Positions 1,509 through 63,995 of a DNA stretch of 64,000 bases are shown piece after piece. Numbering within the stretch: the first letter of the stretch is position 1; the number at the start of each line of letters is the position of its first letter. The position numbers were made by a program, and so were the translations under genes. The stretch is from positions 1 through 64,000 of the IMG/VR virus record IMGVR_UViG_3300025118_004856; one strand, written 5' to 3'. A model generated the notes under the pieces. It saw nothing but the letters and a program-made list of their open reading frames with translations. It made no database searches and had not been told where the DNA came from. The DNA is from a virus.

Positions 1509-1516
1509 TTTTAGTT

Positions 1517-1587
1517 GCAGTTGTGCCGGAATCGAACCGACGTCTCTGACTCGTAAGCCAGCATGATTCCAATTATACCAACAGCTA
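1517..1587 (-). tRNA. tRNA-like gene with abnormal anticodon loop
   Basis: 71 nt, in line with the other four. The T arm GTCGG-TTCGATT-CCGGC and the AATTGG D loop are tRNA-like. The acceptor TAGCTGT/ACAACTG has one C-A mismatch. The best anticodon stem, CTGGC/GTCAG, leaves only a six-base loop TTACGA, so I cannot assign an anticodon. It is either a decaying tRNA or an unusual one. Confidence 0.55.
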
Positions 1588-1596
1588 CACATATTA

Positions 1597-8347: not shown

Positions 8348-9347
8348 AATTATTATCTATAGTTGAATAATGGATAACTTGACTTCCTAATGCTTCAAAT
8401 TTAAAAGGGACATGGACTGATCCTTGCTTTGTCAAAGCGTTTTCAATAATTTTGTGTTTATGTGGTTCAGCAAATATCAATAAAAATCCCCCTCCTCCTG
8501 CACCTAACAACTTACCACCAATAGCACCTTTCCTTAATGCTATATTATACATATTGTCAATCGCATCTGTACTAATTTTATTAGAAATATCCTTTTTCAA
8601 TTTCCAACTTTCATGCAATAACTTACCAAATTCTTTTATATCACTTGAACTTCTCAAAATATTACTAGCTTCATCAACCAAATCAAATAGACTTCGTAAT
8701 GTAGCATTCTTTATTTTAAAATTATCTATCTGACTTTTAGCTATATCAGAAGCAAACCTTGAAAAACCTGTAAAAAATAACATAAGGTGATCTTCCAACA
8801 ATTTCAATCGTTCTGGATCGATAGTAAATGGATTAACATAAAATTCTTGACGCCCCCCAAACTCTATTTTATTAAAACCTCCAAATGAACAAGCTACCTG
8901 ATCTTGAGAGCCTACATTCTCTTCTATTATTTTTTGCTCAACGTGTAATGATGCCTCTGCTAGTTTTCTTTTTGTCACCATATCCCCTTGCAAACCGTAT
9001 AAAGCATGAAGCAAACCAACTGTAAAAGCAGAACTTGAACCTACCCCTGACTTTGCTGGTATATCTCCTGTATGCACTACTTCTAAACCTCCTTTGATTT
9101 TCATATATATAAAACAAGCTCTAACTGAAGGGTGTTTTATTTCTGAAACCCATTTAACTTCTTCTTTTTCTGAATACCTAATAATATGATCAAACTTAAA
9201 AAATGGAGGAAGATTTCTTAAAAGAATATAGCAATACTTATTGATTGTAGTAGATAATACCTGCCCACCATGCTGTCTATACCATTGTGGGTAATCAGTT
9301 CCTCCCCCAAATAGACTGACACGAAATGGTGTTCTTGTAATAATTAT
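8340..9347 (-). CDS. hddA: GHMP-family heptose-7-phosphate kinase (HddA-like), non-AUG start
   Basis: About 335 residues, the usual HddA length. The reading frame continues 81 codons upstream of the first ATG (at 9104) and encodes the conserved N-terminus (TRTPFRVSLFGGGTDYP), so the ATG-initiated product would lack the substrate-binding start of the domain. The next in-frame stop is at 9363, and no ATG, GTG or TTG lies between it and the conserved region; the start is probably ATA or ATT near 9341-9347, behind AAAGGA. Motifs: GGGTDYP, the ATP loop PAKSGVGSSSAFT, and GAGGGGF near the C-terminus. It phosphorylates D-glycero-D-manno-heptose 7-phosphate for GDP-heptose synthesis. Confidence 0.82.
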   Translation of the reverse strand: MIITRTPFRVSLFGGGTDYPQWYRQHGGQVLSTTINKYCYILLRNLPPFFKFDHIIRYSEKEEVKWVSEIKHPSVRACFIYMKIKGGLEVVHTGDIPAKSGVGSSSAFTVGLLHALYGLQGDMVTKRKLAEASLHVEQKIIEENVGSQDQVACSFGGFNKIEFGGRQEFYVNPFTIDPERLKLLEDHLMLFFTGFSRFASDIAKSQIDNFKIKNATLRSLFDLVDEASNILRSSSDIKEFGKLLHESWKLKKDISNKISTDAIDNMYNIALRKGAIGGKLLGAGGGGFLLIFAEPHKHKIIENALTKQGSVHVPFKFEALGSQVIHYSTIDNNYD

Positions 9348-9480: not shown

Positions 9481-9502
9481 AGCTATTATGATAATGGATT
9501 AT

Positions 9503-12500
9503 CTAACCCGTTTGAAACGCACCCGGCCATCCACCATGTTCCTCAATTACCTCGTCGATTTCTTTCATGATGCGGATAGTTTCGTTTAAGGCAACAACTA
9601 TTTTCTGGTAGTGATTGAGATCTTCCTCGGTTAAAACACGTCCTGGGTTGCCTTTTTTTGGGCCACGATCTTTGAGCCATTTGTGACAAACCTGGTATCC
9701 TCCTATTTCGAAATCCCATATTTCTTGTTTGACACACTTAAAATGATCCACAGAATTAATTAAAATTTGTTTTTTTATGGAATCATACTTTGGGTAGCCA
9801 TTTGCTACCTCGCTGTTAATTGCTCCCACATAAATCGCAATCTTTTGTCTAAAAGGATTAATTTTGGTGATACCAGAAGCATTCCAGGGCGCATCTTTAT
9901 AGTTTTCATCGAGAAGATGAAAAGCAACAAGTTCGGCACCTTTAGCCACAAGAGCCCATTTAAGATCACTTGAACCTGAAATAGGAATTCCAGGATATGT
10001 ATCCATCAATGCTTGACCATATTTCTCGCGATAAGTTGGGGAATATAATATAGAGTATATATAGTAAAAAGCAGCATACGGTGCTATCCATTGTTTATTA
10101 CTATTCTTAAAGTGTTTTAGGAACGATGGGTCAATATTTGGCATAGGCTTATCATCTGTAGGTACATTAATCCAAAGGGGGAACATTTGTGTAGATCGAT
10201 CATGAGAACAGCATTTTTTTTCCCCAGTCCTTCTTGAAACCAGTGCATGTGTAAATAGTTTTGTTGTTTTTACATGAGGCGTCATTAATACTAGGTTTTC
10301 CACACTAAGAATGCTCTCTGTAATTGGTCTAGCTGGAGCATCAAGTATATGAGGTTCGTAGTAAATGAGACGATAGTCAAAAGGACGATATAATATCGAA
10401 TGAATTTTATCATCCGAAGTTCCATCATGGAGTAGTCTTCTTTTCGACTTCTCAACATCCCACTTTTTTTTAACAGAATACCCAAGTTCCTCCTCTAAAG
10501 AGTTGTCTCCTCTGTCCAGTTTAGAGAATCTACTAATTTTGCTTCGAAGTGTCTGCCTATCATGATCAATAACCAAACTGTCTCGCGAAGTGATAATGCA
10601 GCAGCTATTAATTCGCATTATGCTTCCCAAACCTTGCCAAACGGAGAATTCTTTTGTTGACTCTGCATCCTCAGGAATAAACTTATAAAATGGTTCTGAG
10701 GGATCCAAACTACTTTCAGGGAAATCCACCATGCTTTTATCTTCAACAGCTTTATATTTCTCTGCTCGATCTCCAAGTAGTCTGCTGTAGCTGCACCAAC
10801 TCTTGTTTGAATTCATTGATATGGATAAAAACGAGATAGCAACCCCTTGGGAAATATCAAAAATATTCTGATCTGCCTTTGCGGAAAATTCTTTTTCTGC
10901 CATATGACCACCAAGGTTTAAGAACTTCAATTTATTGAATAAATTGAGGAACGTCCATCTCATCCCACGTAATGAACGTGAGCTAAGAAATCCAAAATTA
11001 GAAATATAAGAACCGATACCATGTCCGCTTTCGAATATGAGAGAGCTGAGTAACCCAAAAAATTTTATGTAGTCGTCTTGTAAATTGAGTTCATGAGCTA
11101 GTGCTCCTTTCTCAATAATTCGTTTACCTGCAACATATCGAAAAGGCTTTATAAGAGAAACAGCAGCATCAGAAAGGTTAGCTGACATGACTGAATACGG
11201 AGGATTTCCTATAACCACTGTAAATCTAAGATTCCGCTTGATAGCATTCACTGCCTTCGCCTCATGCGCTAACGCAGGAATTTCAAAGACAAAGGTGTCT
11301 GAGAAATCCTGTGGTGGCTCAAGTGCGTTGGTCAGGTACACTCTCACTCGCTCTTCGCTGCCAAAGCAGTAGCCGGTCTCGTAAAGCTTGAGCCCGATCT
11401 TAAGATGTGCAATAGCGTAGGGTGCCATTAGCAGCTCGTAGCCGTACAAACGTGGCAGAAGGTACTTTGGAACGTACTCATTCCAGAGCTTATCGGTCTT
11501 CTTCTTGCTGTGGCCTTCGGCCTGCCACTTCTCGGTCATCGTTTTGTGGATGAGGTCGATCACTTCTACTAAAAAGGTACCAGTACCAGTTGCGGGATCG
11601 AGAATCTGAACGAAGGGCTGATCCTTGGTTGCTCCCTCGGGAATATAGAGGTCGTCGTGGAGTTTGGTCATTTCGCCCCAGGTGATCGTGTCTGCAAGGC
11701 CATCTTCAAGACTGAACTTGGTGCGCAGCAGCTCGTCAACCGAGCGGACGATGAAGGAGACTACAGGTCGGGGGGTATAAAACACTCCGCGCTGCATTCG
11801 TTTTTTGGCATCGTACTCCTTGAGGAAGAGCTCATAAAAGTGTATGACCGGGTCTTCCTGAGGGTTTCTGTCCCCAAAGTCCCGGACAATTGCTTCCATG
11901 TGAGTATTAGGGTTATTCAACAACTCCACTACCTCATTTACCCCGAGTTCGTCAAAGTCGACGTCAGCACTAAGCTTGGTCCTATCGCTTTTTTCACCGA
12001 CAGAAAGGAAAGTTTCCATCAGGTCTTTGAGGAAGGGATTTGTGATAGGAATCTGATCTAAGAAGTCATCTGCTGTGCTAGGTTTCGGGTTTGTAATTCG
12101 TGAAGAAAGCAGACCATAAGCAATAGTCTGTGCATACATATCAGCGAAACTGTCCTCATCTAAATCGTGAATAAGGGCTTTCTTAACTGCCTTCATTAGC
12201 ATTCGGCGAGGACCGTTCTCTGTTTCAATGGATAGTACATCGTTGATACATGCTCGAATACTCTGTGCAAGTTTAGCAAGCCTTATGAACAAGGACTTAG
12301 ACGTATTGATTACCTCTAAATGCTGCAATGTAAAAGCCGATGTCCATGTTTTTCGCCAAGTGTCTATATCATTTTCATCCTCTGGCCAAGTAAGTTTTGA
12401 GTGAAGTTCATCTGAAACATTATCAAGATGTAGAGGAGTATCTAAGTTATCCCATCCCAAAACTTTTAGAGTAGGAAGAGATTTCTTGTTTACGTTTTGC

Positions 12501-12913
12501 GAAAAGTGCGCAAGGCTTATTCTTCGTTCTTCGCTTTCTCCATAGTTAGAGATGAAGAGTAAATCGTTCATACTCCAAGCGGGTCTTTCTGAGACATTAG
12601 CAGAAGCACGCTTCCTAAATACAACTCGGCTAAGAATCCTCCGTAGGGCTACGACTGGGAGTCTTTTAGGCTCAAACTTGACAAAAAAGATAGCCCAAGG
12701 TGGTTGGTTAGGCACTAATGGTCTTAGACGTCTAATCTCCTTAATCTTAGCAGCATTTTTTCTATCGATTCCCAGTTCTTCAGGAGTATAGTCAAAGGTT
12801 AAGTCCTCAAAATTATCAGAACTGATAGGCCAATCGAGTTCGTCGTGGAGATACTTAATAAGTTGTGGGAACGCTCTAACATCTTTTAGCAAATCACGAT
12901 GGTTTGGAGCCAT
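9503..12913 (-). CDS. Large adenine-specific DNA methyltransferase (type ISP / DrmMI-like)
   Basis: 1136 residues. An N-terminal helical region (1-360) leads to GVFYTPRPVVSFIVR (376-390), AdoMet motif I DPATGTG (439-445) and catalytic NPPY (570-573), as in gamma-type N6-adenine methylases. The C-terminal part (YSPTYREKYG near 950-970) looks like the specificity domain of type ISP enzymes. Unlike full type ISP proteins, there is no nuclease or DEAD helicase. The gene just upstream is the end of a helicase, so this could be the methylase of a DISARM class 1 (drmD-drmMI order) or related locus. The 5' half is clearly richer in GC than its neighbours, a sign of transfer. Likely role here: protecting phage DNA from a host system. 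Confidence 0.82.
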   Translation of the reverse strand: MAPNHRDLLKDVRAFPQLIKYLHDELDWPISSDNFEDLTFDYTPEELGIDRKNAAKIKEIRRLRPLVPNQPPWAIFFVKFEPKRLPVVALRRILSRVVFRKRASANVSERPAWSMNDLLFISNYGESEERRISLAHFSQNVNKKSLPTLKVLGWDNLDTPLHLDNVSDELHSKLTWPEDENDIDTWRKTWTSAFTLQHLEVINTSKSLFIRLAKLAQSIRACINDVLSIETENGPRRMLMKAVKKALIHDLDEDSFADMYAQTIAYGLLSSRITNPKPSTADDFLDQIPITNPFLKDLMETFLSVGEKSDRTKLSADVDFDELGVNEVVELLNNPNTHMEAIVRDFGDRNPQEDPVIHFYELFLKEYDAKKRMQRGVFYTPRPVVSFIVRSVDELLRTKFSLEDGLADTITWGEMTKLHDDLYIPEGATKDQPFVQILDPATGTGTFLVEVIDLIHKTMTEKWQAEGHSKKKTDKLWNEYVPKYLLPRLYGYELLMAPYAIAHLKIGLKLYETGYCFGSEERVRVYLTNALEPPQDFSDTFVFEIPALAHEAKAVNAIKRNLRFTVVIGNPPYSVMSANLSDAAVSLIKPFRYVAGKRIIEKGALAHELNLQDDYIKFFGLLSSLIFESGHGIGSYISNFGFLSSRSLRGMRWTFLNLFNKLKFLNLGGHMAEKEFSAKADQNIFDISQGVAISFLSISMNSNKSWCSYSRLLGDRAEKYKAVEDKSMVDFPESSLDPSEPFYKFIPEDAESTKEFSVWQGLGSIMRINSCCIITSRDSLVIDHDRQTLRSKISRFSKLDRGDNSLEEELGYSVKKKWDVEKSKRRLLHDGTSDDKIHSILYRPFDYRLIYYEPHILDAPARPITESILSVENLVLMTPHVKTTKLFTHALVSRRTGEKKCCSHDRSTQMFPLWINVPTDDKPMPNIDPSFLKHFKNSNKQWIAPYAAFYYIYSILYSPTYREKYGQALMDTYPGIPISGSSDLKWALVAKGAELVAFHLLDENYKDAPWNASGITKINPFRQKIAIYVGAINSEVANGYPKYDSIKKQILINSVDHFKCVKQEIWDFEIGGYQVCHKWLKDRGPKKGNPGRVLTEEDLNHYQKIVVALNETIRIMKEIDEVIEEHGGWPGAFQTG

Positions 12914-12916
12914 TTA

Positions 12917-13423
12917 TTACTCCTCGTTGAGTTCCATCCAGGCTTTAAGAATAGGTTTCACATCTATAGGAGCATCAACACGTTTAAGATACGTATTTTT
13001 GATATGCTTTAGAACCTTTATCCGAATCTCTATTAGAGTTTTCTGGTCAGCAACGCACTTACGTGGCGTGTTAGGTTTAGATCGAATACTCTGGATGATT
13101 TCGCCGGGTTCTTCGAGAATTACCCCTTTGTCAATGTCATAAAGATACCATCGGGTTGTTCCTGCCTCCTCGGTGAACTGTTCTTTTTCCTTATCCAGGG
13201 CAGGTAGGACGTAACAAAAAAAGACTCCATAAGTACCCTTAGCTGGGCGTTTCCGCCCACTGAATATGGAACCAGGAAGACCGCCAAGATACTTATCAAG
13301 ATCAGGATTTTCCTTGAGCAACTTTTGATATTCAAGATGCATTCCCTCTACTGCTGTCTTCTTTCCTTCATAGGCATGGTTAAATTCTTTTTTTGCTGCC
13401 TTTCTTAATTCTTGTGTATTCAT
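12917..13423 (-). pseudogene. C-terminal remnant of an SNF2/DrmD-like helicase
   Basis: 168 residues. It resembles only the end of large SNF2-family helicases found beside adenine methylases (phrases such as RWYLYD, HIKNTYLK and KAWMELN). Helicase motifs are absent. The frame has an ATG, but the normal protein would be several times longer. It ends four bases before the methyltransferase start, the spacing of an original operon. It could be a functional small partner, but a truncated gene is more likely. The assignment rests on remembered family sequence. Confidence 0.5.
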
Positions 13424-13443
13424 AATTTCTCATAAATAAAAAA

Positions 13444-13713
13444 AGTAGTGGGTGCAAAAAACAAAAAGTTCTACGCTATCAGAAAAGAACTCTCAACTGC
13501 CTTCTTCAACATATCCGACAGACACCCACTACTCAATAATGTGAGCTTACCACCTAAATTCTATTAAAAGAATTTATGACTGCCTTATTCAATATATTCG
13601 GCAGACTCCCATTATTAAAATTGCAAGTAATGGGTGCATTAACCGTGTAAATCTTCGCTCAAAAAGACTTAACATTCCCGCTATTTCAATATATTTCACG
13701 GACACCCACTACC
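13444..13713 (-). repeat. Three tandem ~85-bp hairpin repeats
   Basis: Three units: 13444-13533, 13535-13616 and 13626-13713. Each begins and ends with long inverted arms; unit 1 has a perfect 11-bp pair AGTAGTGGGTG/CACCCACTACT. On the minus strand every unit reads arm, GTCYG..., an (A)TATRTTGAA segment, then a second small stem (such as AGTTCT/AGAACT) and the closing arm, which suggests a three-way junction. Units differ by compensating changes. No open frame longer than 30 codons lies here. Could be REP-like elements, small RNAs or a mobile-element end. Confidence 0.8.
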
Positions 13714-13801
13714 TGTTATTTCCTTTAAGAGAAGGCAACGCTTTTTCACATTGTTGTTTGATTTTTCCGATTAAGCTAATTACTTCTACCGTAGAATACA
13801 T
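13709..13801 (-). CDS. Truncated short open frame at island border (30 aa)
   Basis: Begins MYSTVEVISLIGKIK and stops inside the closing arm of the third hairpin unit. It overlaps the end of the upstream gene. AAAGGA precedes the ATG closely. The product looks like the start of a helical phage protein cut short by the repeat/methyltransferase island. Confidence 0.35.
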   Translation of the reverse strand: MYSTVEVISLIGKIKQQCEKALPSLKGNNR

Positions 13802-14113: not shown

Positions 14114-14488
14114 TTATTCTTCAGTCTCTTCAGTGAATTTTCTCAAATCATTCTTAGATGGATTAGCAAATCTTTCTCTTGCCATATCATGATACTCATT
14201 AGATAAATCAAATCCAATATAATCATGACCCAATAACTGTGCTGCTAGTCCAGTCGTACCTGAACCACTGTAGGGGTCAAGCACTAGACCAGATTCATCC
14301 AATACGCCTTGAATACATCTAGAAGGAAGTTGAATTGGGAAAGGTGCAGGATGAGGATTCTTCATCTCAGGTCCAAACTTCCATACACTTGTATAATTAA
14401 CTGACCTTCTAGTATGATCATACTTTTTTAAATAGGTTCTTAGCCTGTTATCTAAGGCTAAATTTCTTGATGTTAATAAACTTTGCAT
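14114..14488 (-). pseudogene. 3' remnant of a DNA (N4/N6) methyltransferase
   Basis: 124 residues corresponding to the C-terminal end of a beta-class DNA methyltransferase: NPHPAPFP, then AdoMet motif I DPYSGSGTTG (71-80) and GFDLS. The catalytic (D/N)PPY half is missing. The frame is open only a few codons upstream of the ATG, where it meets the truncated RNA ligase gene. One deletion appears to have removed the start of this gene and the end of the ligase. It is unlikely to be active. Confidence 0.72.
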
Positions 14489-14664
14489 ACGGCTAATATT
14501 GTCCTTTGAATACCTATCTTGATTCTCATAAAAAGTTCTCCGTTAACCTTACCAAAAGCAAACTGACTACCATCTATCTTTTCCGTAATTTCTACTTCAT
14601 CATCAAAAATGTTAGAAATGTAGTCTGTACCAATTGCAAATATTTTTGGAAATGCATTAATCAT
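14473..14664 (-). pseudogene. 5' remnant of an Rnl2-type RNA ligase
   Basis: 63 residues. VEITEKIDGSQFAFG carries the nucleotidyltransferase motif KxDG (29-32), whose Lys is adenylated in RNA and DNA ligases of the T4 Rnl2 kind. All later ligase motifs are missing: after NGELFMR the frame runs into unrelated sequence and stops. It overlaps the methyltransferase remnant by 16 bases, consistent with a deletion joining two genes. Confidence 0.68.
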
Positions 14665-20834: not shown

Positions 20835-21902
20835 TCAAAATGGTCCTTTAAATTTATTTTCATGCGAATAGCAATCTACATCACGTAGATCAGGTACACG
20901 TAATCCTAACCTATTTGTAACTTTTAAAACTATATCTTTTACATCATAATAAAAATCATTCTCAAGATGTCTTGCAGTAGGACAAGGAGTATTCTTCCAA
21001 CCTATTCTTGAAAAATTAATAGGATTATGTGTAAGATTAAATTTACCATCGAGATACTTTGCTAAGAACCCAGCCCCAACACTATTGCTCAACCAATCAT
21101 CCTCAACAATAATACATTCATCTGTGTTAATACAACTGACTATTAAATCTATATCAAGATTAGATAACCTTTTTAAATCTATTATATTAGTCTTCACAGA
21201 ACACTTACTCCATAAAACATCTGCAGCTTTTTTACACTCAACTACCCCCCACGAATAACTTAATAAAGTTATATCTGCTTCACCATCAGACCTATAAGGA
21301 TGTACTACAGTTTGAAAAGGCTGTTCAAAATCAGATTCCAAAACACAAGGATGAACTTCTTGCTCTTGCCAATACAACCATCTATGTTCAAAACAAATAA
21401 CAGGACTATTACTTCTAATTGCCTTAGTCAACATCCCTTTCATATCTATTGGATTTGAAGGGGCTATAACTATCAATCCGGGTACATGAGTAAATAAAGA
21501 AAATAAACTTTTACTATGCTGAAAACCTTGCCCCCATCCTCTTCCAATTATTATCCTTATAACTATTGGGCATAATAGTTGATTATTGCTCATATACTGA
21601 ATACCAGACATCATATTAATTATCTGATTCATAGCAAGCAAAGCAAAATCTGCTCTAATATGTATTTGTACAGGTCTCATGCCATTCATTGCTGCCCCTA
21701 TCCCAAACCCAGTAAGCGAATCTTCACTAAGCGGAGTATCGAACACTCTATTTTTACCGAACTTTTCTTGTAATCCTATAGTTGTACCAAATATTCCCTT
21801 AAAATCATCACAACCTATTCCATAACAGAAAACATTTTTATCTCGTTCCATTTCCTGTATTAAAGTTGTTCTTATTGCTTCTGCATAAGTCAATTTCTGC
21901 AT
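20835..21902 (-). CDS. TPP-dependent dehydrogenase E1 beta subunit-like
   Basis: 355 residues. Transketolase pyrimidine-binding domain (DTPLSEDSLTGFGIGAA, the conserved catalytic Glu included) followed by the C-terminal transketolase domain. Pairs with the E1 alpha gene upstream to form a thiamine-diphosphate enzyme of the 2-oxo-acid dehydrogenase E1 type. No E2 or E3 lies in the window, so it may perform a decarboxylating transfer in sugar or small-molecule synthesis, or feed a host complex. It overlaps the HNH gene by 13 bases. Confidence 0.87.
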   Translation of the reverse strand: MQKLTYAEAIRTTLIQEMERDKNVFCYGIGCDDFKGIFGTTIGLQEKFGKNRVFDTPLSEDSLTGFGIGAAMNGMRPVQIHIRADFALLAMNQIINMMSGIQYMSNNQLLCPIVIRIIIGRGWGQGFQHSKSLFSLFTHVPGLIVIAPSNPIDMKGMLTKAIRSNSPVICFEHRWLYWQEQEVHPCVLESDFEQPFQTVVHPYRSDGEADITLLSYSWGVVECKKAADVLWSKCSVKTNIIDLKRLSNLDIDLIVSCINTDECIIVEDDWLSNSVGAGFLAKYLDGKFNLTHNPINFSRIGWKNTPCPTARHLENDFYYDVKDIVLKVTNRLGLRVPDLRDVDCYSHENKFKGPF

Positions 21903-22567
21903 AATCTTTTAACCCAAAAAGCCCTATTGTAATTAGTTTTCATATGACATTTCTTACATAAGGAAATTAGATTTTCTGACACACTATTCTTTTTATTATA
22001 ATCAATATGATGTACTCCTAACTTATAATCTAATTCTTCCTGTTTAATTCCGCATTCTTGGCAAGTATAATTATCTCTTTTTCTAATTTCCTCTTTTAAC
22101 TTTTCATTAAATTCTATCCCATATGGCTCAAAAGAAACACCGCCTACCCAGTTAGGATGGTCTTTCCCTAAAGAATATATACGATTCAGACTTATCTTTT
22201 CTCTGGTTTCTTTACTATGATTCTTTCCGTACATACCATTATTTTTACCAACAGTAGCATTTCTAATTTTTTCTATAGTTGCTTTAGAATGTTTTCTACC
22301 AATATGAGCTTTTCTATTGAGCTCCTTCGTTTCTTTCGTATGATTCCTTCCATAAAAAGGATTATTTTTACCTAAATAATCTGGACTATTTAAACTCATT
22401 TTAATAAGTGATTCTTTAGAATGTTTTTTACCAAGAAAAGGATTATTACTACCTCTATTCTGATGCCCATTAATAAAGGTATTAAACCTCTGATTATACT
22501 TATTCCAAATAGGAAATTCACTACAACCACATTCACAAAACTTTTTTAGTAGATTTATTGTTCTCAT
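21890..22567 (-). CDS. HNH homing endonuclease with NUMOD3 repeats
   Basis: 225 residues. Several NUMOD3-type DNA-binding repeats (GKKHSKES, GRNHTKET, GKNHSKET) are followed by an HNH nuclease: C-x2-C (YTCQEC), VHHIDYNK, NLISLCKKCH. It lies between the E1 alpha and beta genes, overlapping both, and so probably invaded an adjacent alpha-beta pair. Three relatives occur in the tail region. Confidence 0.9.
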   Translation of the reverse strand: MRTINLLKKFCECGCSEFPIWNKYNQRFNTFINGHQNRGSNNPFLGKKHSKESLIKMSLNSPDYLGKNNPFYGRNHTKETKELNRKAHIGRKHSKATIEKIRNATVGKNNGMYGKNHSKETREKISLNRIYSLGKDHPNWVGGVSFEPYGIEFNEKLKEEIRKRDNYTCQECGIKQEELDYKLGVHHIDYNKKNSVSENLISLCKKCHMKTNYNRAFWVKRLCRN

Positions 22568-33846: not shown

Positions 33847-34167
33847 TTAAATATTTAAAATAGTTGAACTCATTTTCCCATACCCTCTTGGAAAGGGATA
33901 ACAGGACATAAAATATCCCTTTTCGATTGTTCTGTTTGTATAAGAAGATCTTAAATCAAATCTCATATTCCAAATTTCTTGGATAAACTCTTTTTTTTGA
34001 TTTTCTTTTCCATTCAAATTGTTTGATGGATGCGATAATGTTTCCGAAAATACTTTTTCAATTTCAACACACGCTAAAATATCAAAGCCTGCCTGGTGGA
34101 ATCCTATATCTAGCCCACCAGCTCCAGAAAACAAAGAAAGGGTTCTAATTTGACATTTTGTGGCCAT
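33847..34167 (-). pseudogene. Truncated C5-cytosine DNA methyltransferase
   Basis: About 106 residues from the ATG (MATKCQIRT) that follows GGGGGAG; a longer frame starts 36 bases earlier. LSLFSGAGGLDIGF is motif I and ACVEIE motif II of Dcm-type enzymes. The catalytic PC motif, ENV, QRR and the recognition domain are absent; the remaining 50 residues do not follow the family. An A8 run near 33990 and a plausible continuation in another frame point to decay by deletion plus frameshift. Confidence 0.75.
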
Positions 34168-34258
34168 AACATCCAACTCCCCCTGAACTGAAAAGTGTGA
34201 CATATGTAAGTTCCTTGTTCTTCAGCATATCGTCTTATTACCCAAATAAGAATATATT

Positions 34259-41334: not shown

Positions 41335-41370
41335 TAAAAATAGAGGAGCTGATTTTACTCAGCCCCTCCT
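41335..41370 (-). terminator. Rho-independent terminator
   Basis: Minus strand GAGGGGCTGA-GTAAAA-TCAGCTCCTC followed by TATTTTT, immediately after the metallopeptidase-VWA gene. Confidence 0.85.
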
Positions 41371-41376
41371 GTTTAA

Positions 41377-44514: not shown

Positions 44515-44574
44515 AGGTTTCTCCTTAATATAATAGTTAATAAAAAATGAATTTAATTTTAAAAGATTAATAAA

Positions 44575-44700
44575 TTATTTTTTAATACCGTATCTTGTCC
44601 AAATATTCGGAACTGCAACTTGAAGCTTTAACATGTTCTGCCATTGTCTCAAGGACAAGGTCTTCAGTGCGTTCTCCTTCCAACACTTTTCATTCTTCAT
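44575..44700 (-). CDS. Small protein (41 aa)
   Basis: MKNEKCWKENALKTLSL..., basic with three Trp. GGAGGTG lies seven bases before the ATG, which is the main support. Not recognised. Confidence 0.6.
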   Translation of the reverse strand: MKNEKCWKENALKTLSLRQWQNMLKLQVAVPNIWTRYGIKK

Positions 44701-44730
44701 TAATAACCACCTCCTTTAAATAATTTTTGA

Positions 44731-44889
44731 CTATACTTTTGAATAACAATTTTTACAAAAAGAAAAATCAATTTCATCTTGTTGTTCTGTGCCTTGATTA
44801 ACTGTTAAATATTTGTAGTAAACTTTACCAGTTATTTCCTTGCGACATTTATTACAATATTCTTTCCAGTTTTTTAAAGCATTTTCCAT
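44731..44889 (-). CDS. Small zinc-ribbon protein (52 aa)
   Basis: C-x2-C (YCNKC) and C-x2-C (FCKNC) flank a beta-rich middle. RBS GGGAGGTG is strong. One of several four-cysteine microproteins in this genome. Confidence 0.7.
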   Translation of the reverse strand: MENALKNWKEYCNKCRKEITGKVYYKYLTVNQGTEQQDEIDFSFCKNCYSKV

Positions 44890-44917
44890 TTAATCACCTC
44901 CCTTAGTTAATTTGGAT

Positions 44918-44969
44918 AACACATTCAAACCCTCTCTTTCTTTCGTAGGCGAAAGGGTTTTGATGTGTT
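44918..44969. repeat. Long inverted repeat in leader region
   Basis: Arms AACACATTCAAACCCT and AGGGTTTTGATGTGTT pair almost fully, with an inner CTTTCG-TAGG-CGAAAG stem. On the minus strand it lies in the leader of the 52-aa zinc-ribbon gene. Between it and 45120 I see no gene with a standard start. Confidence 0.6.
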
Positions 44970-45119
44970 GACCCCGTTGTTTATAAATTTCGGTAGTGCT
45001 TAATTTTCATCATCAATTATTTTTACTACAAAAAGATTAGCAAGTTCTTTTACTGAACCATCTTTTGCATTGTTACCAAATTAAATCCTCCTATATATAA
45101 TAGTTAATAATAAATTTTC

Positions 45120-45440
45120 GATTGCCCACCGATTTGCACCAGTGGGCTCGGGAAATTTACTATTTAATTGTTTGCACTTCCGCTTTATAGCTTGTCGATT
45201 TTTTTGTCAGCCGTAAAAGCGAAAACCTTTTAAAACTCTACGACACTACCGCTTCAAGCTCGTGCTGTCCTAAAAGACCTGAGTTCTTCGCTCATTGGTC
45301 AGGATGCGCTATTGACTTGAATACCCGAGTGTTCCGATATCTTTAAATTGGTTATCCGCAGTTTGCTGGGGATCGCAGACTGAATTAGCTCCGTCTGCTT
45401 ATTGTGCCCAATTCCTCAGTGAATGTTTTGAAAATTTAAA
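45120..45440 (-). ncRNA. Candidate structured non-coding RNA (~320 nt)
   Basis: No open frame of note, GC clearly above the flanks, and many nested helices: GCAGAC/GTCTGC (45375-45398), ATCC-CAG/CTG-GGAT (45354-45373), both enclosed by AATTGG/CCAATT (45346-45413); GACC-TGAG/CTCA-GGTC (45276-45300) inside TCCT/AGGA, itself inside CACT...CTTCAAG/CTTGAA...AGTG (45244-45331); and GCCCAC/GTGGGC (45124-45147) at one end. Loops are purine-rich on the minus strand (CAAA, CGAAGAA), favouring that orientation. It does not match tmRNA, RNase P RNA, 6S RNA or a group I/II intron core as I know them. Confidence 0.6.
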
Positions 45441-45446
45441 TCCAGT

Positions 45447-45593
45447 TTACATAGTTACGATAGTTGTCTGCACTTGAGATGTCGTATTCTGTTGAACCGC
45501 TTTGAGCCTCCTTGTAGGCATGGCAACTGTGTTTGAAAAAATAATTGCCGTGATTAAAATTGAAATAATTAAATTGTAAATATCATTTATCAT
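45447..45593 (-). CDS. Signal-peptide-like 48-aa protein before the RNA candidate
   Basis: MINDIYNLIISILITAIIFSNTVAMP looks like a signal peptide or membrane anchor, followed by a Gln/Thr-rich short tail. CAGG directly precedes the ATG, a weak RBS. It may be the leader peptide of the transcript that carries the structured RNA. Not recognised. Confidence 0.45.
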   Translation of the reverse strand: MINDIYNLIISILITAIIFSNTVAMPTRRLKAVQQNTTSQVQTTIVTM

Positions 45594-45639
45594 CCTGATA
45601 ATAATATATATTATTTTTTATTATATTGCCAGGAAAAAA

Positions 45640-45838
45640 TGAGCCCTTTTTCACTTTTCTTGCGTTTTATTCATAACTCCTATAGAAACAAGCACTTACA
45701 AGGTGAAAAAAACGCAGAAAAACAGCTATTTTTTGTGAAAAAACTTAGTTTTATATGGACAGTCTATTATTTTTTATTTAAAAATAAAATTTAAAATTTA
45801 AAAATAATATAGTATAATAAAAATGAAAGGAGAATTTT
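45640..45838. promoter_or_regulatory. Repeat-bearing A/T-rich control region with divergent promoters
   Basis: Three copies of GTGAAAAA (45647-45654 inverted, 45703-45710, 45735-45742), an inverted pair TGCGTTTT/AAAACGCA (45661-45716), and a very A/T-rich tract from 45760. A TATAAT box at 45813-45818 precedes the plus-strand regulator (RBS AAAGGAG), and a minus-strand TATAAT lies near 45621. It could be an operator for the ribbon-helix-helix protein, an origin, or both. Confidence 0.5.
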
Positions 45839-45997
45839 ATGAGGAGAGTTGAAAAAGATGAGACGTATAAAACATATTCATTTTATTTAAAGGGTCTGCT
45901 GGTTAAAAAATTAGAGGATGAAGCTATCAAAGAAAAAAGATCAACTTCAAAACAACTGGAATTAATTTTAGAAAAATTTCTAAATGGTAAGAGTTAA
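45839..45997 (+). CDS. Ribbon-helix-helix regulator, sole plus-strand gene
   Basis: 52 residues, MRRVEKDETYKTYSFYLKGLLV..., with one strand (TYSFYL) and two helices (LVKKLEDEAIKEK, TSKQLELILEKFL), the layout of Arc/MetJ-type dimeric DNA-binding proteins. RBS AAAGGAG six bases before the ATG. Opposite in direction to every other convincing gene; its stop overlaps the stop of the converging lysis-region gene. Probably an early regulator acting on the control region beside it. Confidence 0.75.
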   Translation: MRRVEKDETYKTYSFYLKGLLVKKLEDEAIKEKRSTSKQLELILEKFLNGKS

Positions 45998-55814: not shown

Positions 55815-56579
55815 CTAAACTCTCTCAATAATTTCATCAAGTTTCTTTTGGTGCTCAATATTTTTTACAATTTTTAAATTTCCATTATTCCTTTTATTTT
55901 GTTCTTCAACTAAAAGATCATTGACTCTTTTTAATGACATACGATCAACCTTATGGTCACAATGAACATTTTTATCTACATATATTTTATAACCAATGTC
56001 TATTGCATTATCACAAAAGATAAAATCTTGACCACAAGATATTTCACCTCTCTCATTATATTTACTTTCATAAAACATTGTTCGTCCTGTAGTTTTTAAT
56101 AAATGCTCTTTCATCTTTACTATAACTTCTCTTTTTATTAACACACAAGAAGCACCAGTAGCAGAACATTCTTGCAACCTTATATCTTTATTCTTTTGCC
56201 AATCTACATTAGAATAGCCTCCATTTACTTTATCTAAAATAACCGCAAATGGATATCCATATTGAAAGCTGAAACAAGTAGCACCGACAATATCTTTGTC
56301 ATGTCTAACTAATTCATCTATACAATTCTGTGGTGGAACAATGTCACTATCTATTGTTAAAACATAATCATTATCACTTTCTAAAAATCTATGCATAGCT
56401 TTGTTTCTGACACTGTCTATCGGTTTTCCGTCAACTATATCTATATTTAAAATATATTTTCCTGGTTCTATAAAATTATAATGCGTTACATTTTTCAAAA
56501 CCCACATGAAAAGTTCTGGCTCAATTCTTGTGTATGGAGCAATCGGGATGCTTATAAGAATTTTTTTAGGTTTATCCAT
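55815..56579 (-). CDS. GT-A-type glycosyltransferase
   Basis: 254 residues. SVRNKAMHRFLESDNDYVLTID-like region with the DxD motif DSD (77-79) for metal-nucleotide-sugar binding, then a downstream acidic residue and CDHKVDR, typical of small GT-A folds. Located between tape measure and adhesin, so it may glycosylate a virion protein or a host glycan. Confidence 0.78.
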   Translation of the reverse strand: MDKPKKILISIPIAPYTRIEPELFMWVLKNVTHYNFIEPGKYILNIDIVDGKPIDSVRNKAMHRFLESDNDYVLTIDSDIVPPQNCIDELVRHDKDIVGATCFSFQYGYPFAVILDKVNGGYSNVDWQKNKDIRLQECSATGASCVLIKREVIVKMKEHLLKTTGRTMFYESKYNERGEISCGQDFIFCDNAIDIGYKIYVDKNVHCDHKVDRMSLKRVNDLLVEEQNKRNNGNLKIVKNIEHQKKLDEIIERV

Positions 56580-57246
56580 TCATTTCTCCTGTTAAATTTA
56601 TAGATTCATAATTAAAATTCAAGTCATGATTGAGTTTATTTAAAGATTTTAAAATAACTGTCCAATGTATTCTAACAAAATTAGTTTTTAAATGACAAGT
56701 AACACAAAGACTAATTAAATTTTCAGGATTATTATTTTGTTTATTATAATCTATGTGATGAACATGTAATTTCTTATTCTTTTGTTTTTTACTACATAAT
56801 CTACAAAGATATTTATCTCTTTTTCTTACTTGTTCTTTTAAAGTGTTATTAAACTCGATTCCGTATGGTTCAAAGGAAATTCCACCCAACCATCTTGGAT
56901 TCTTACTACCTTTTGTATCAATTGAATTACTTATCTTCTTTCGTGTTTCTTCTGAATGCTGTTTCCCATACATTGCATTACCTGAACCAGAACGATCTCT
57001 ACTCATCTTTAGTTTAGTTTCTTCTGAGTGTTTTTTACCAAACATAGAATTATTTTTACCCGACGTATCTGAACGATTAAGCTTTAACTTTAATTTTTGT
57101 TCTTCTGTAAACGTAGTACCCTTTCTTTTTTTACCAAGATTTCTAATACGTTCCATTTCGTACTTATTATTTTTTAATGTATTGCTTATCTTTAGTTTCT
57201 GTTCTTCTGACATCCTTTTACCTTTATTCCAAGCTATTCTTTTCAT
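56572..57246 (-). CDS. HNH homing endonuclease with NUMOD3 repeats
   Basis: 224 residues. NUMOD3 repeats (GKKHSEET, GKQHSEET) then HNH: YLCRLCSKKQ, VHHIDYNKQ, NLISLCVTCH. Inserted between the tape measure gene and the glycosyltransferase; overlaps the latter by eight bases. Confidence 0.9.
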   Translation of the reverse strand: MKRIAWNKGKRMSEEQKLKISNTLKNNKYEMERIRNLGKKRKGTTFTEEQKLKLKLNRSDTSGKNNSMFGKKHSEETKLKMSRDRSGSGNAMYGKQHSEETRKKISNSIDTKGSKNPRWLGGISFEPYGIEFNNTLKEQVRKRDKYLCRLCSKKQKNKKLHVHHIDYNKQNNNPENLISLCVTCHLKTNFVRIHWTVILKSLNKLNHDLNFNYESINLTGEMNG

Positions 57247-60446: not shown

Positions 60447-61223
60447 TTATATTACCTTTAATTTACTATTAACTAATTTAATTAAAAATAATTTCCATTT
60501 TTCTCTATTATAATTTGTCTTTGGATGACATTTATTGCAAAGGGAAATTAAATTTTTAGGATCATTATTTTGCTTATCATAATCAATATGATGAACATGC
60601 AAATATTCATTCTTAATTTTTATTGAACAAATTCTACAAATATAATTGTCTCTTTTCTTAATTAAATGTTTTAATTGTGTATTAAAATCTTCACCATATT
60701 CACCAAAAGATAGACCACCTCTCCAAAAATGAGATTTTGATCCTGTTCTACCTTTCATAGGACTAACTCTACCTTTATTTTTTTCACTTATCTTTAATCG
60801 AGTTTCTTTAGAATGCTTTTCCCCAAACATTCCGTGATCTTTACCTTTTGCTACATTTAAAAATGTAATCTTCCCTTCTACTATCAATCTCTTACGAGTT
60901 TCACTCATTTTTCGCTTTGTTTCTTTTGAAGCTTTCGTCCCAGTTTTAACTCTACTTAATTTCTTTTTAGTTTCTTCTGGCATAGGAACACCTTTGTTCC
61001 AAGCAGACACTCCTTTTTTAAAAAGGTAAGGAGCATTTTTTCTTTCTGGAGGCAAAGGTCTTCCTTTTTGAGCTTTCCTGATCTTTTCTTTAGTCTCTTC
61101 AGAACAAGGAATACCTTTATTTCCTGGTACATTCCCCATTAACTTTTTACTAATTCTCTTTTTCATTTCTTCAGCCATTGGAATACCTTTATTCCAGGGA
61201 ATATTTCCTTTTTTTACTGGCAT
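60447..61223 (-). CDS. HNH homing endonuclease with many NUMOD3-like repeats
   Basis: 258 residues, the longest of the set, with about seven repeats of the type PWNKGIPMAEEMKKRIS / SEETKEKIRKAQKG, then HNH (YICRICSIKI, VHHIDYDKQ, NLISLCNKCH). Sits directly upstream of the tape measure gene. Confidence 0.9.
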   Translation of the reverse strand: MPVKKGNIPWNKGIPMAEEMKKRISKKLMGNVPGNKGIPCSEETKEKIRKAQKGRPLPPERKNAPYLFKKGVSAWNKGVPMPEETKKKLSRVKTGTKASKETKRKMSETRKRLIVEGKITFLNVAKGKDHGMFGEKHSKETRLKISEKNKGRVSPMKGRTGSKSHFWRGGLSFGEYGEDFNTQLKHLIKKRDNYICRICSIKIKNEYLHVHHIDYDKQNNDPKNLISLCNKCHPKTNYNREKWKLFLIKLVNSKLKVI

Positions 61224-63515: not shown

Positions 63516-63995
63516 TTAGGCACATAATTTTTTAGTTATGATAATACCTTTAGTAAAAAATAATTCCCAAGAATCTCTATTAAAATTAGTTTTTATGTGA
63601 CATTTAACACATAAAGTAATTAAATTTTTAGGATCATTATTTTGCTTATTATAATCAATGTGGTGGACACAATGTTTAAGTTTTTCTTCTTTTTCACCAC
63701 ACAATTGACAAGTATAATTATCTCTTTCTTTAATAGATTTTTTTAATTCTTTTGTAAAATTAAAAGAATAAGGTAGTTTTGAAATACCTCCTTGCCAATT
63801 ATAATTATTTTTTCCTCTAATCTTGTCTTTAGATTTTTCATACATCGCAATACCTTTATTCCAACTCTTATGTCCTTTTAAAGCAATGCTAAGTTTTTTT
63901 CTTGTTTCAATAGAAACAATCTTTCCTCTATTGCCATCACCTATTTTCTTTTTATGTTCTTCAGAATGCCTTTTACCTATTTTCCCAAGACTCAT
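63516..63995 (-). CDS. HNH homing endonuclease, probably incomplete at window edge
   Basis: 159 residues visible. NUMOD3 repeats (GKRHSEEHKKKIG) and an HNH end (YTCQLCGEKE, VHHIDYNKQ, NLITLCVKCH). Frame is open to within five bases of the window edge and its relatives are longer, so the N-terminus may continue outside. Confidence 0.85.
   Translation of the reverse strand: MSLGKIGKRHSEEHKKKIGDGNRGKIVSIETRKKLSIALKGHKSWNKGIAMYEKSKDKIRGKNNYNWQGGISKLPYSFNFTKELKKSIKERDNYTCQLCGEKEEKLKHCVHHIDYNKQNNDPKNLITLCVKCHIKTNFNRDSWELFFTKGIIITKKLCA

Follow-up and report, generated by a model that had tools for sequence, protein, structure and literature searches.

Organization of the locus

The DNA analyzed here (the window) is a stretch of 64,000 nucleotides, positions 1 to 64,000 of the 65,162-base virus record IMGVR_UViG_3300025118_004856 in IMG/VR. 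Among the longer gaps on its gene (minus) strand is one that contains three tandem units of 80 to 88 nt each, all on the minus strand (Table 1). The original prediction had placed three tandem hairpin units at 13444-13713, and they were found within 13445-13712. Folding gave the same architecture for each unit, namely, a closing stem P1 of 10 to 11 pairs, a stem P2 whose loop carries the ATATRTTGAA sequence common to all units, and a hairpin P3, which correspond to the long inverted arms and two small inner stems described earlier. The shared central segment (A)TATRTTGAA of the original prediction is present in all units, but it is properly the conserved P2 loop, and the relevant strand is minus, that of the genes. 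The P2 loop reads RRATATRTTGAA... in all three units of the array, and the core of unit 2 is the family consensus, TGCC-GAATATATTGAATAA-GGCA.

The folding z-scores of units 1, 2, and 3 were -4.7, -3.1, and -4.0 for the minus strand versus -3.9, -3.7, and -1.1 for the plus strand; the minus-strand fold is clearly stronger in units 1 and 3, and the two strands are similar in unit 2. The similarity between units is far above that of shuffled sequences (local alignment z of 8 to 12; direct-repeat families D1 and D2). The letters of the stems vary among the three units through compensatory changes that preserve the pairing, as had been proposed for the arms.

Table 1. Positions of the array units and of other features in the window
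Feature	Position	Strand	Description
Gap holding the array	13424..13775	-	Contains all three units
Unit 3	13627..13712	-	Three-way junction; first on the transcribed strand; P2 loop 13682-13697; model R2, 63.1 bits
Unit 2	13536..13615	-	Three-way junction; P2 loop 13585-13599; model R2, 80.1 bits
Unit 1	13445..13532	-	Three-way junction; P2 loop 13502-13516; model R2, 82.4 bits
T-tract TTTTTTTATTTAT	13432..13444	-	Abuts unit 1 P1; terminator-like tail, conserved in L003
Methyltransferase segment	~9485..13390		Missing from the near-identical phage L004
Heptose-kinase-like gene, N-terminus	9345..9347	-	No in-frame ATG, GTG, or TTG at the conserved N-terminus
Gene debris	14114..14664		63-aa ORF that appears to resemble the N-terminus of RNA ligase and C-terminal part of an N6_N4 methyltransferase, both upstream of the array
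tRNA-like gene	1516..1588		Anticodon unassigned; within a cluster of five phage tRNA genes
C-5 cytosine methyltransferase	33847..34203		N-terminal fragment beside a 398-aa ORF with no Pfam match; possibly a broken restriction-modification pair
Terminator-like hairpin	~41345..41372		Ordinary, short loop
Gene-strand gap	44515..45993		~1.5 kb; short ORFs only; GC skew climbs to near zero
Putative HNH homing endonuclease ORF, first of four	21890..22567		Repeated NUMOD-like motifs among the four
Putative HNH homing endonuclease ORF, second	56572..57246		
Putative HNH homing endonuclease ORF, third	60447..61223		
Putative HNH homing endonuclease ORF, fourth	63516..63995		

Relation to the methyltransferase gene and to related phages

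The near-identical phage IMGVR_UViG_3300025112_006667 (L004) is 100% identical to the window from 22027 to 13391, including all three units, and then resumes at window position 9484. The segment missing from L004 encodes a type ISP methyltransferase of 1136 aa (Type_ISP_C, E=1.5e-63), in which no nuclease or helicase part was noted, and a 168-aa ORF for which a Pfam search gave no match. It splits a 55-aa ORF; in L004, this ORF is intact. The array had been placed at the edge of a methyltransferase island, but the insert junction lies ~55 bp beyond the array, within a small ORF. Because L004 has the hairpins without the methyltransferase, the hairpins do not terminate a mobile unit that brought the methyltransferase into the phage, and this part of the original prediction is refuted. 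The methyltransferase is most simply read as an insertion, and the hairpins as part of the phage backbone.

A single unit is found at the same locus (8380-8470) in a diverged phage, IMGVR_UViG_3300030382_004717 (L003). It directly precedes the same GHMP-type sugar kinase gene, whose DNA is 80% identical to that of the window, and is the orthologue of unit 1. P1, P2, the loop, the P3-to-P1 strand, and the T7ATTTAT tail are nearly unchanged between the two, and P3 has diverged with its pairing kept. Judged from the sequences, this is the divergence pattern of a structured element under selection.

Two explanations that linked the hairpins to adjacent genes were rejected. Joint gain or loss of the hairpins with the type ISP methyltransferase does not fit L004, with all three units, or L003, with one, as neither has the methyltransferase at the site. 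A type III toxin-antitoxin system (ToxIN-like) would have an endoribonuclease toxin gene behind tandem RNA repeats; here the gene after the array differs, being the 55-aa ORF in L004 and the kinase in L003, and the 168-aa ORF has no Pfam match.

Several other observations concern the surrounding genes. The 168-aa ORF takes its first codons from the split 55-aa ORF. Gene debris lies upstream of the array (Table 1), and in L003 the same N-terminus (MISAFPKIFAI) passes into other sequence, followed by the hairpin. The site resembles a hot spot of gene exchange. In the heptose-kinase-like gene, the codon aligned to the ATG of L003 is ATA, with AAAGGA before it, and an ATA start or a damaged start is possible.

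Search for further members of the family

Patterns containing P1 of this phage retrieved no further copies. The sole scan of a genome collection used this P1 and was therefore blind to the wider family. Covariance model R1, applied near 77 heptose-kinase-relative loci, found the element only in already known phages, and its absence from the other kinase loci indicates that the element is not tied to the kinase. A relaxed core pattern covering P2 and the loop only, GNCRRATATRTTGAANNAGNC, retrieved 53 stretches, which were scored with model R1. Five further independent units were selected (L262/L280, L248, L275, L241, and L272), each with the three-way junction and each in an unrelated uncultured phage contig. 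Together with the copy in L003, these five bear out the expectation of further copies elsewhere, and the absence of a second occurrence in any genome, named beforehand as evidence against the prediction, is not what was found.

The apical loop GAATATATTGAATAA on a short GC stem is identical in all five distant units and in unit 2. A 21-mer, GCCGAATATATTGAATAAGGC, is common to unit 2 and four of the five, and L275 carries GGC...GCC in place of the stem letters of the 21-mer, a compensatory change. By our own estimate, which assumes a collection of ~60 billion bases, chance alone would supply ~0.03 exact copies of such a 21-mer. The family totals nine distinct units of 80 to 110 nt, with element G+C contents of ~30 to 60%. 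Model R2 found one copy per record, with the exception of the triple here and in the record of L004.

The other matches were rejected. Those of the patterns (L005-L010, L012-L021, L113, and L224) and the weak matches of the models (L122, L128, L239, L247, and L257) fell within coding sequence, had no P1, or scored no better than chance; the remaining core-pattern matches inspected were coding or lacked the stems, and core matches in Neisseria and Providencia records had no three-way junction.

The units have no match in the collections searched. No Rfam family matched them at the gathering score; at E<=1 nothing was obtained for three distant units, and at E<=5 the window array gave just two chance-level matches. 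None of the Rfam covariance models, including manA, wcaG, JUMPstart, riboswitches, and ribozymes, took in the units as members. The loop core gave short partial matches only in 50,697 phage records (GenBank), 72,556 plasmids, and 5,426 E. coli genomes. Models R1 and R2 found nothing credible in ~1,600 sampled genomes (groups of G003, G005, G006, and G007; small samples, whose empty result carries little weight), the sole match, L239, being coding sequence. The loop sequence was not found in any of the papers searched.

Covariation and structure

The covariance analysis of all copies that had been suggested showed strong covariation of the stems. In an alignment of the nine units, which follows a model derived from four of them and leans towards the structure, 94.3% of the P1/P2 cells were paired and 11 of the 16 pairs were altered on both sides. 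The covariation score was 0.618, compared to 0.167 for shuffled alignments (0 of 500 reached the observed value) and 0.02 to 0.21 for slid registers; all five covariation measures exceeded 500 of 500 shuffles and every slid register. A hand count over P1, P2, and P3 gave 182 Watson-Crick pairs, 19 G-U pairs, 1 mismatch, and 0 A-C pairs, the last being indicative only, as the stems were hand-picked and bulges removed. The element strand had the better folding z-score in eight of the nine units. P1 is not random, since its 5' arm retains a loose KTNGTNGGNG pattern. For L003 and L307, the minimum-energy fold is a different structure, and alternative conformers are therefore possible. A self-cleaving ribozyme was considered and rejected, with no conserved junction letters and no cleavage site visible.

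The nine units thus display the compensatory changes by which structured RNA motifs are recognized, and the best reading is that the units of the array represent a family of structured RNA elements not catalogued before.

Genomic context of the units

Most units are intergenic, on the strand of the neighboring genes and directly 5' of a start codon. The units of L305, L307, L308, L309, and L003 each occupy a gap on the coding strand, with the start codon close downstream. In L309 and L305, the replication module contains the unit, which follows an SSB-like gene and immediately precedes the ribosome-binding site of a small gene. The L308 unit starts immediately past a stop codon, upstream of the terminase region, and the L307 unit is in the leader of an ABC transporter gene. 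An upstream stretch of the latter leader (~8474-8485) is perfectly complementary over 11 nt to the P3 loop region, which may allow two exclusive folds. The L306 unit lies among tail genes and has the opposite orientation to its neighbors. The gene that precedes the L308 unit has relatives in Leptospira phage LE1 and mycobacteriophage MooMoo; these are followed by little or no gap, and model R2 found no element there, which indicates that the element is an optional addition. The genes downstream of the units are unrelated, and therefore no gene-specific regulation is suggested.

Comparison with known RNAs

The phage-carried structured RNAs manA (RF01745) and wcaG (RF01761), whose function is unproven, also precede genes, some of which concern sugars and exopolysaccharides (Weinberg et al. 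2010, PMC2864571). However, the elements described here have no Rfam match even at E<=1 to 5, occur in other taxa and contexts, and present one invariant apical loop in a three-way junction. Three-way junctions and pairing loops are found in other RNAs as well. The pRNA of phi29 contains a three-way junction, and the kissing loop of the HIV DIS type is palindromic and pairs with a second copy. The likeness in junction or palindromic loop is one of working principle only; there is no sequence relation, and kissing is a candidate here. Unlike pRNA, the units are not tied to packaging genes, as only the L308 unit adjoins terminase.

Proposed function and alternatives

On balance, we favor the interpretation that the units form a new structured-RNA family and probably act as cis elements of mRNA that present a docking loop, with a partner altering the expression of the downstream gene. 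The element would lie within the mRNA, in an intercistronic region or a 5' leader. Action in cis is favored because units sit directly upstream of start codons. P1 and the variable P3 would fix the junction and expose the nearly invariant 15-nt P2 loop, GAAUAUAUUGAAUAA, as a docking site directly 5' of the ribosome-binding region, and a bound partner would alter how the downstream gene or genes are transcribed or how their mRNA is processed or translated. The partner may be a protein of host or phage origin, an RNA, or a second copy, contacted through its loop. The loop includes AATATATT, which is self-complementary over 8 nt, and the loop variants GATATATT and GATATGTT are still self-complementary when G-U pairs are allowed. 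Copies or transcripts could therefore contact each other loop to loop, although very few changes bear on this, and a protein or RNA partner common to different hosts is an equal candidate. In this phage, with three units in tandem, the last one, unit 1, closes with a U-tract and may attenuate transcription. Some features fit this interpretation less well: the family numbers only nine units, the L306 unit runs opposite to its neighbors, another structure is the minimum-energy fold in L003 and L307, and the downstream genes share no relationship.

A stand-alone small RNA acting in trans, in which P1 and the U-tract of unit 1 form the end and the loop pairs with or sequesters a target, is an unlikely alternative. 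The conserved T7 tract does end both unit 1 and the L003 unit, and the L306 copy is opposite in strand to its neighbors, as an independent gene could be. However, units 2 and 3 and the distant copies have no U-tract, the L305, L308, and L309 copies between same-strand genes leave little room for a promoter, and loop-complementary sites in the phages show no clear excess. Of the small-RNA idea in the original prediction, the RNA nature is backed by covariation, strand bias, and G-U pairs, but the position upstream of start codons favors action in cis.

We are more doubtful still of a mobile or recombination element that works as single-stranded DNA, REP/REPIN-like with an HUH nuclease in trans and the loop as the recognition site. 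REP sequences are high-copy palindromes of 20 to 40 bp, one end of which bears an unpaired GTAG or CGTC motif (PMC3733652), and REP/REPIN units are short, palindromic, and extragenic, some with a GTAG start and CTAC end, and are associated with RAYT transposases (PMC3733652, PMC2817692). The units resemble these in having a hairpin doublet between paired ends, in their unrelated sites and optional presence, and in the KTNGTNGGNG pattern of the P1 5' arm, which recalls the GTAG/GTGG tags of REPs (PMC2817692); DNA also tolerates G-T pairs. They differ in their length of 80 to 110 nt, their conserved 15-nt loop, and their low copy number, with a single copy per record save the triple in this phage. 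The P1 pattern is paired, with the GTAG of units 1 and 3 and L003 fully within P1, leaving no unpaired tag. A linked Y1-type transposase had been suggested earlier as something to look for; no Y1 (RAYT) transposase (PF01797) was found in the three phages (G000, G001, and G002), and GGGTGTC did not cluster at the Y1 neighborhoods of the six genomes of L005-L010. In addition, the ~1,600 sampled genomes held zero copies, and the window copies and L003 remain at one syntenic site. The predicted new family is real and its copies recur, but as REP members the units fail on the defining features, though they may be mobile in some other way. An informal look for a resemblance to integron attC sites noticed no R-box-like GTTRRRY/RYYYAAC.

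An RNA acting on RNA polymerase or Rho, and thereby keeping downstream genes expressed, would account for placement before unrelated genes and for a loop common to phages differing in G+C. The put RNA of HK022 is of this kind, mediating processive antitermination with two hairpins. By this analogy such a role seems quite improbable, as the element is a three-way junction rather than two hairpins, no terminator was seen downstream, and Rfam gives no match. Least probable is that the units are ordinary terminators of transcription or hairpins at mRNA ends that lack a specific partner: seven T follow P1 of unit 1, but the interior is ~66 nt, the U-tract is present only at unit 1 and L003 and missing after units 2 and 3 and the distant copies, an invariant loop is unnecessary for a terminator, and an ordinary terminator-like hairpin exists elsewhere in the phage (Table 1). 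In an intrinsic terminator, a U-tract immediately succeeds a GC-rich stem with a short loop; the terminator scan did not call the array.

The loop is constant letter for letter at element G+C contents of ~30 to 60% while the surrounding stems are rewritten, which indicates a strongly selected, unnamed interaction. The 21-nt core and the covariance model make the element directly searchable in metagenomes. We suggest, tentatively, a new class of phage RNA and a portable regulatory module, whose loop is either recognized by a factor shared among very different hosts or self-kissing. If so, a shared partner would be, for example, RNA polymerase, the ribosome, or an RNA-processing enzyme, and unrelated phages would be placing one portable module before their genes. 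The selected loop interaction may then reveal a phage-host contact at the RNA level.
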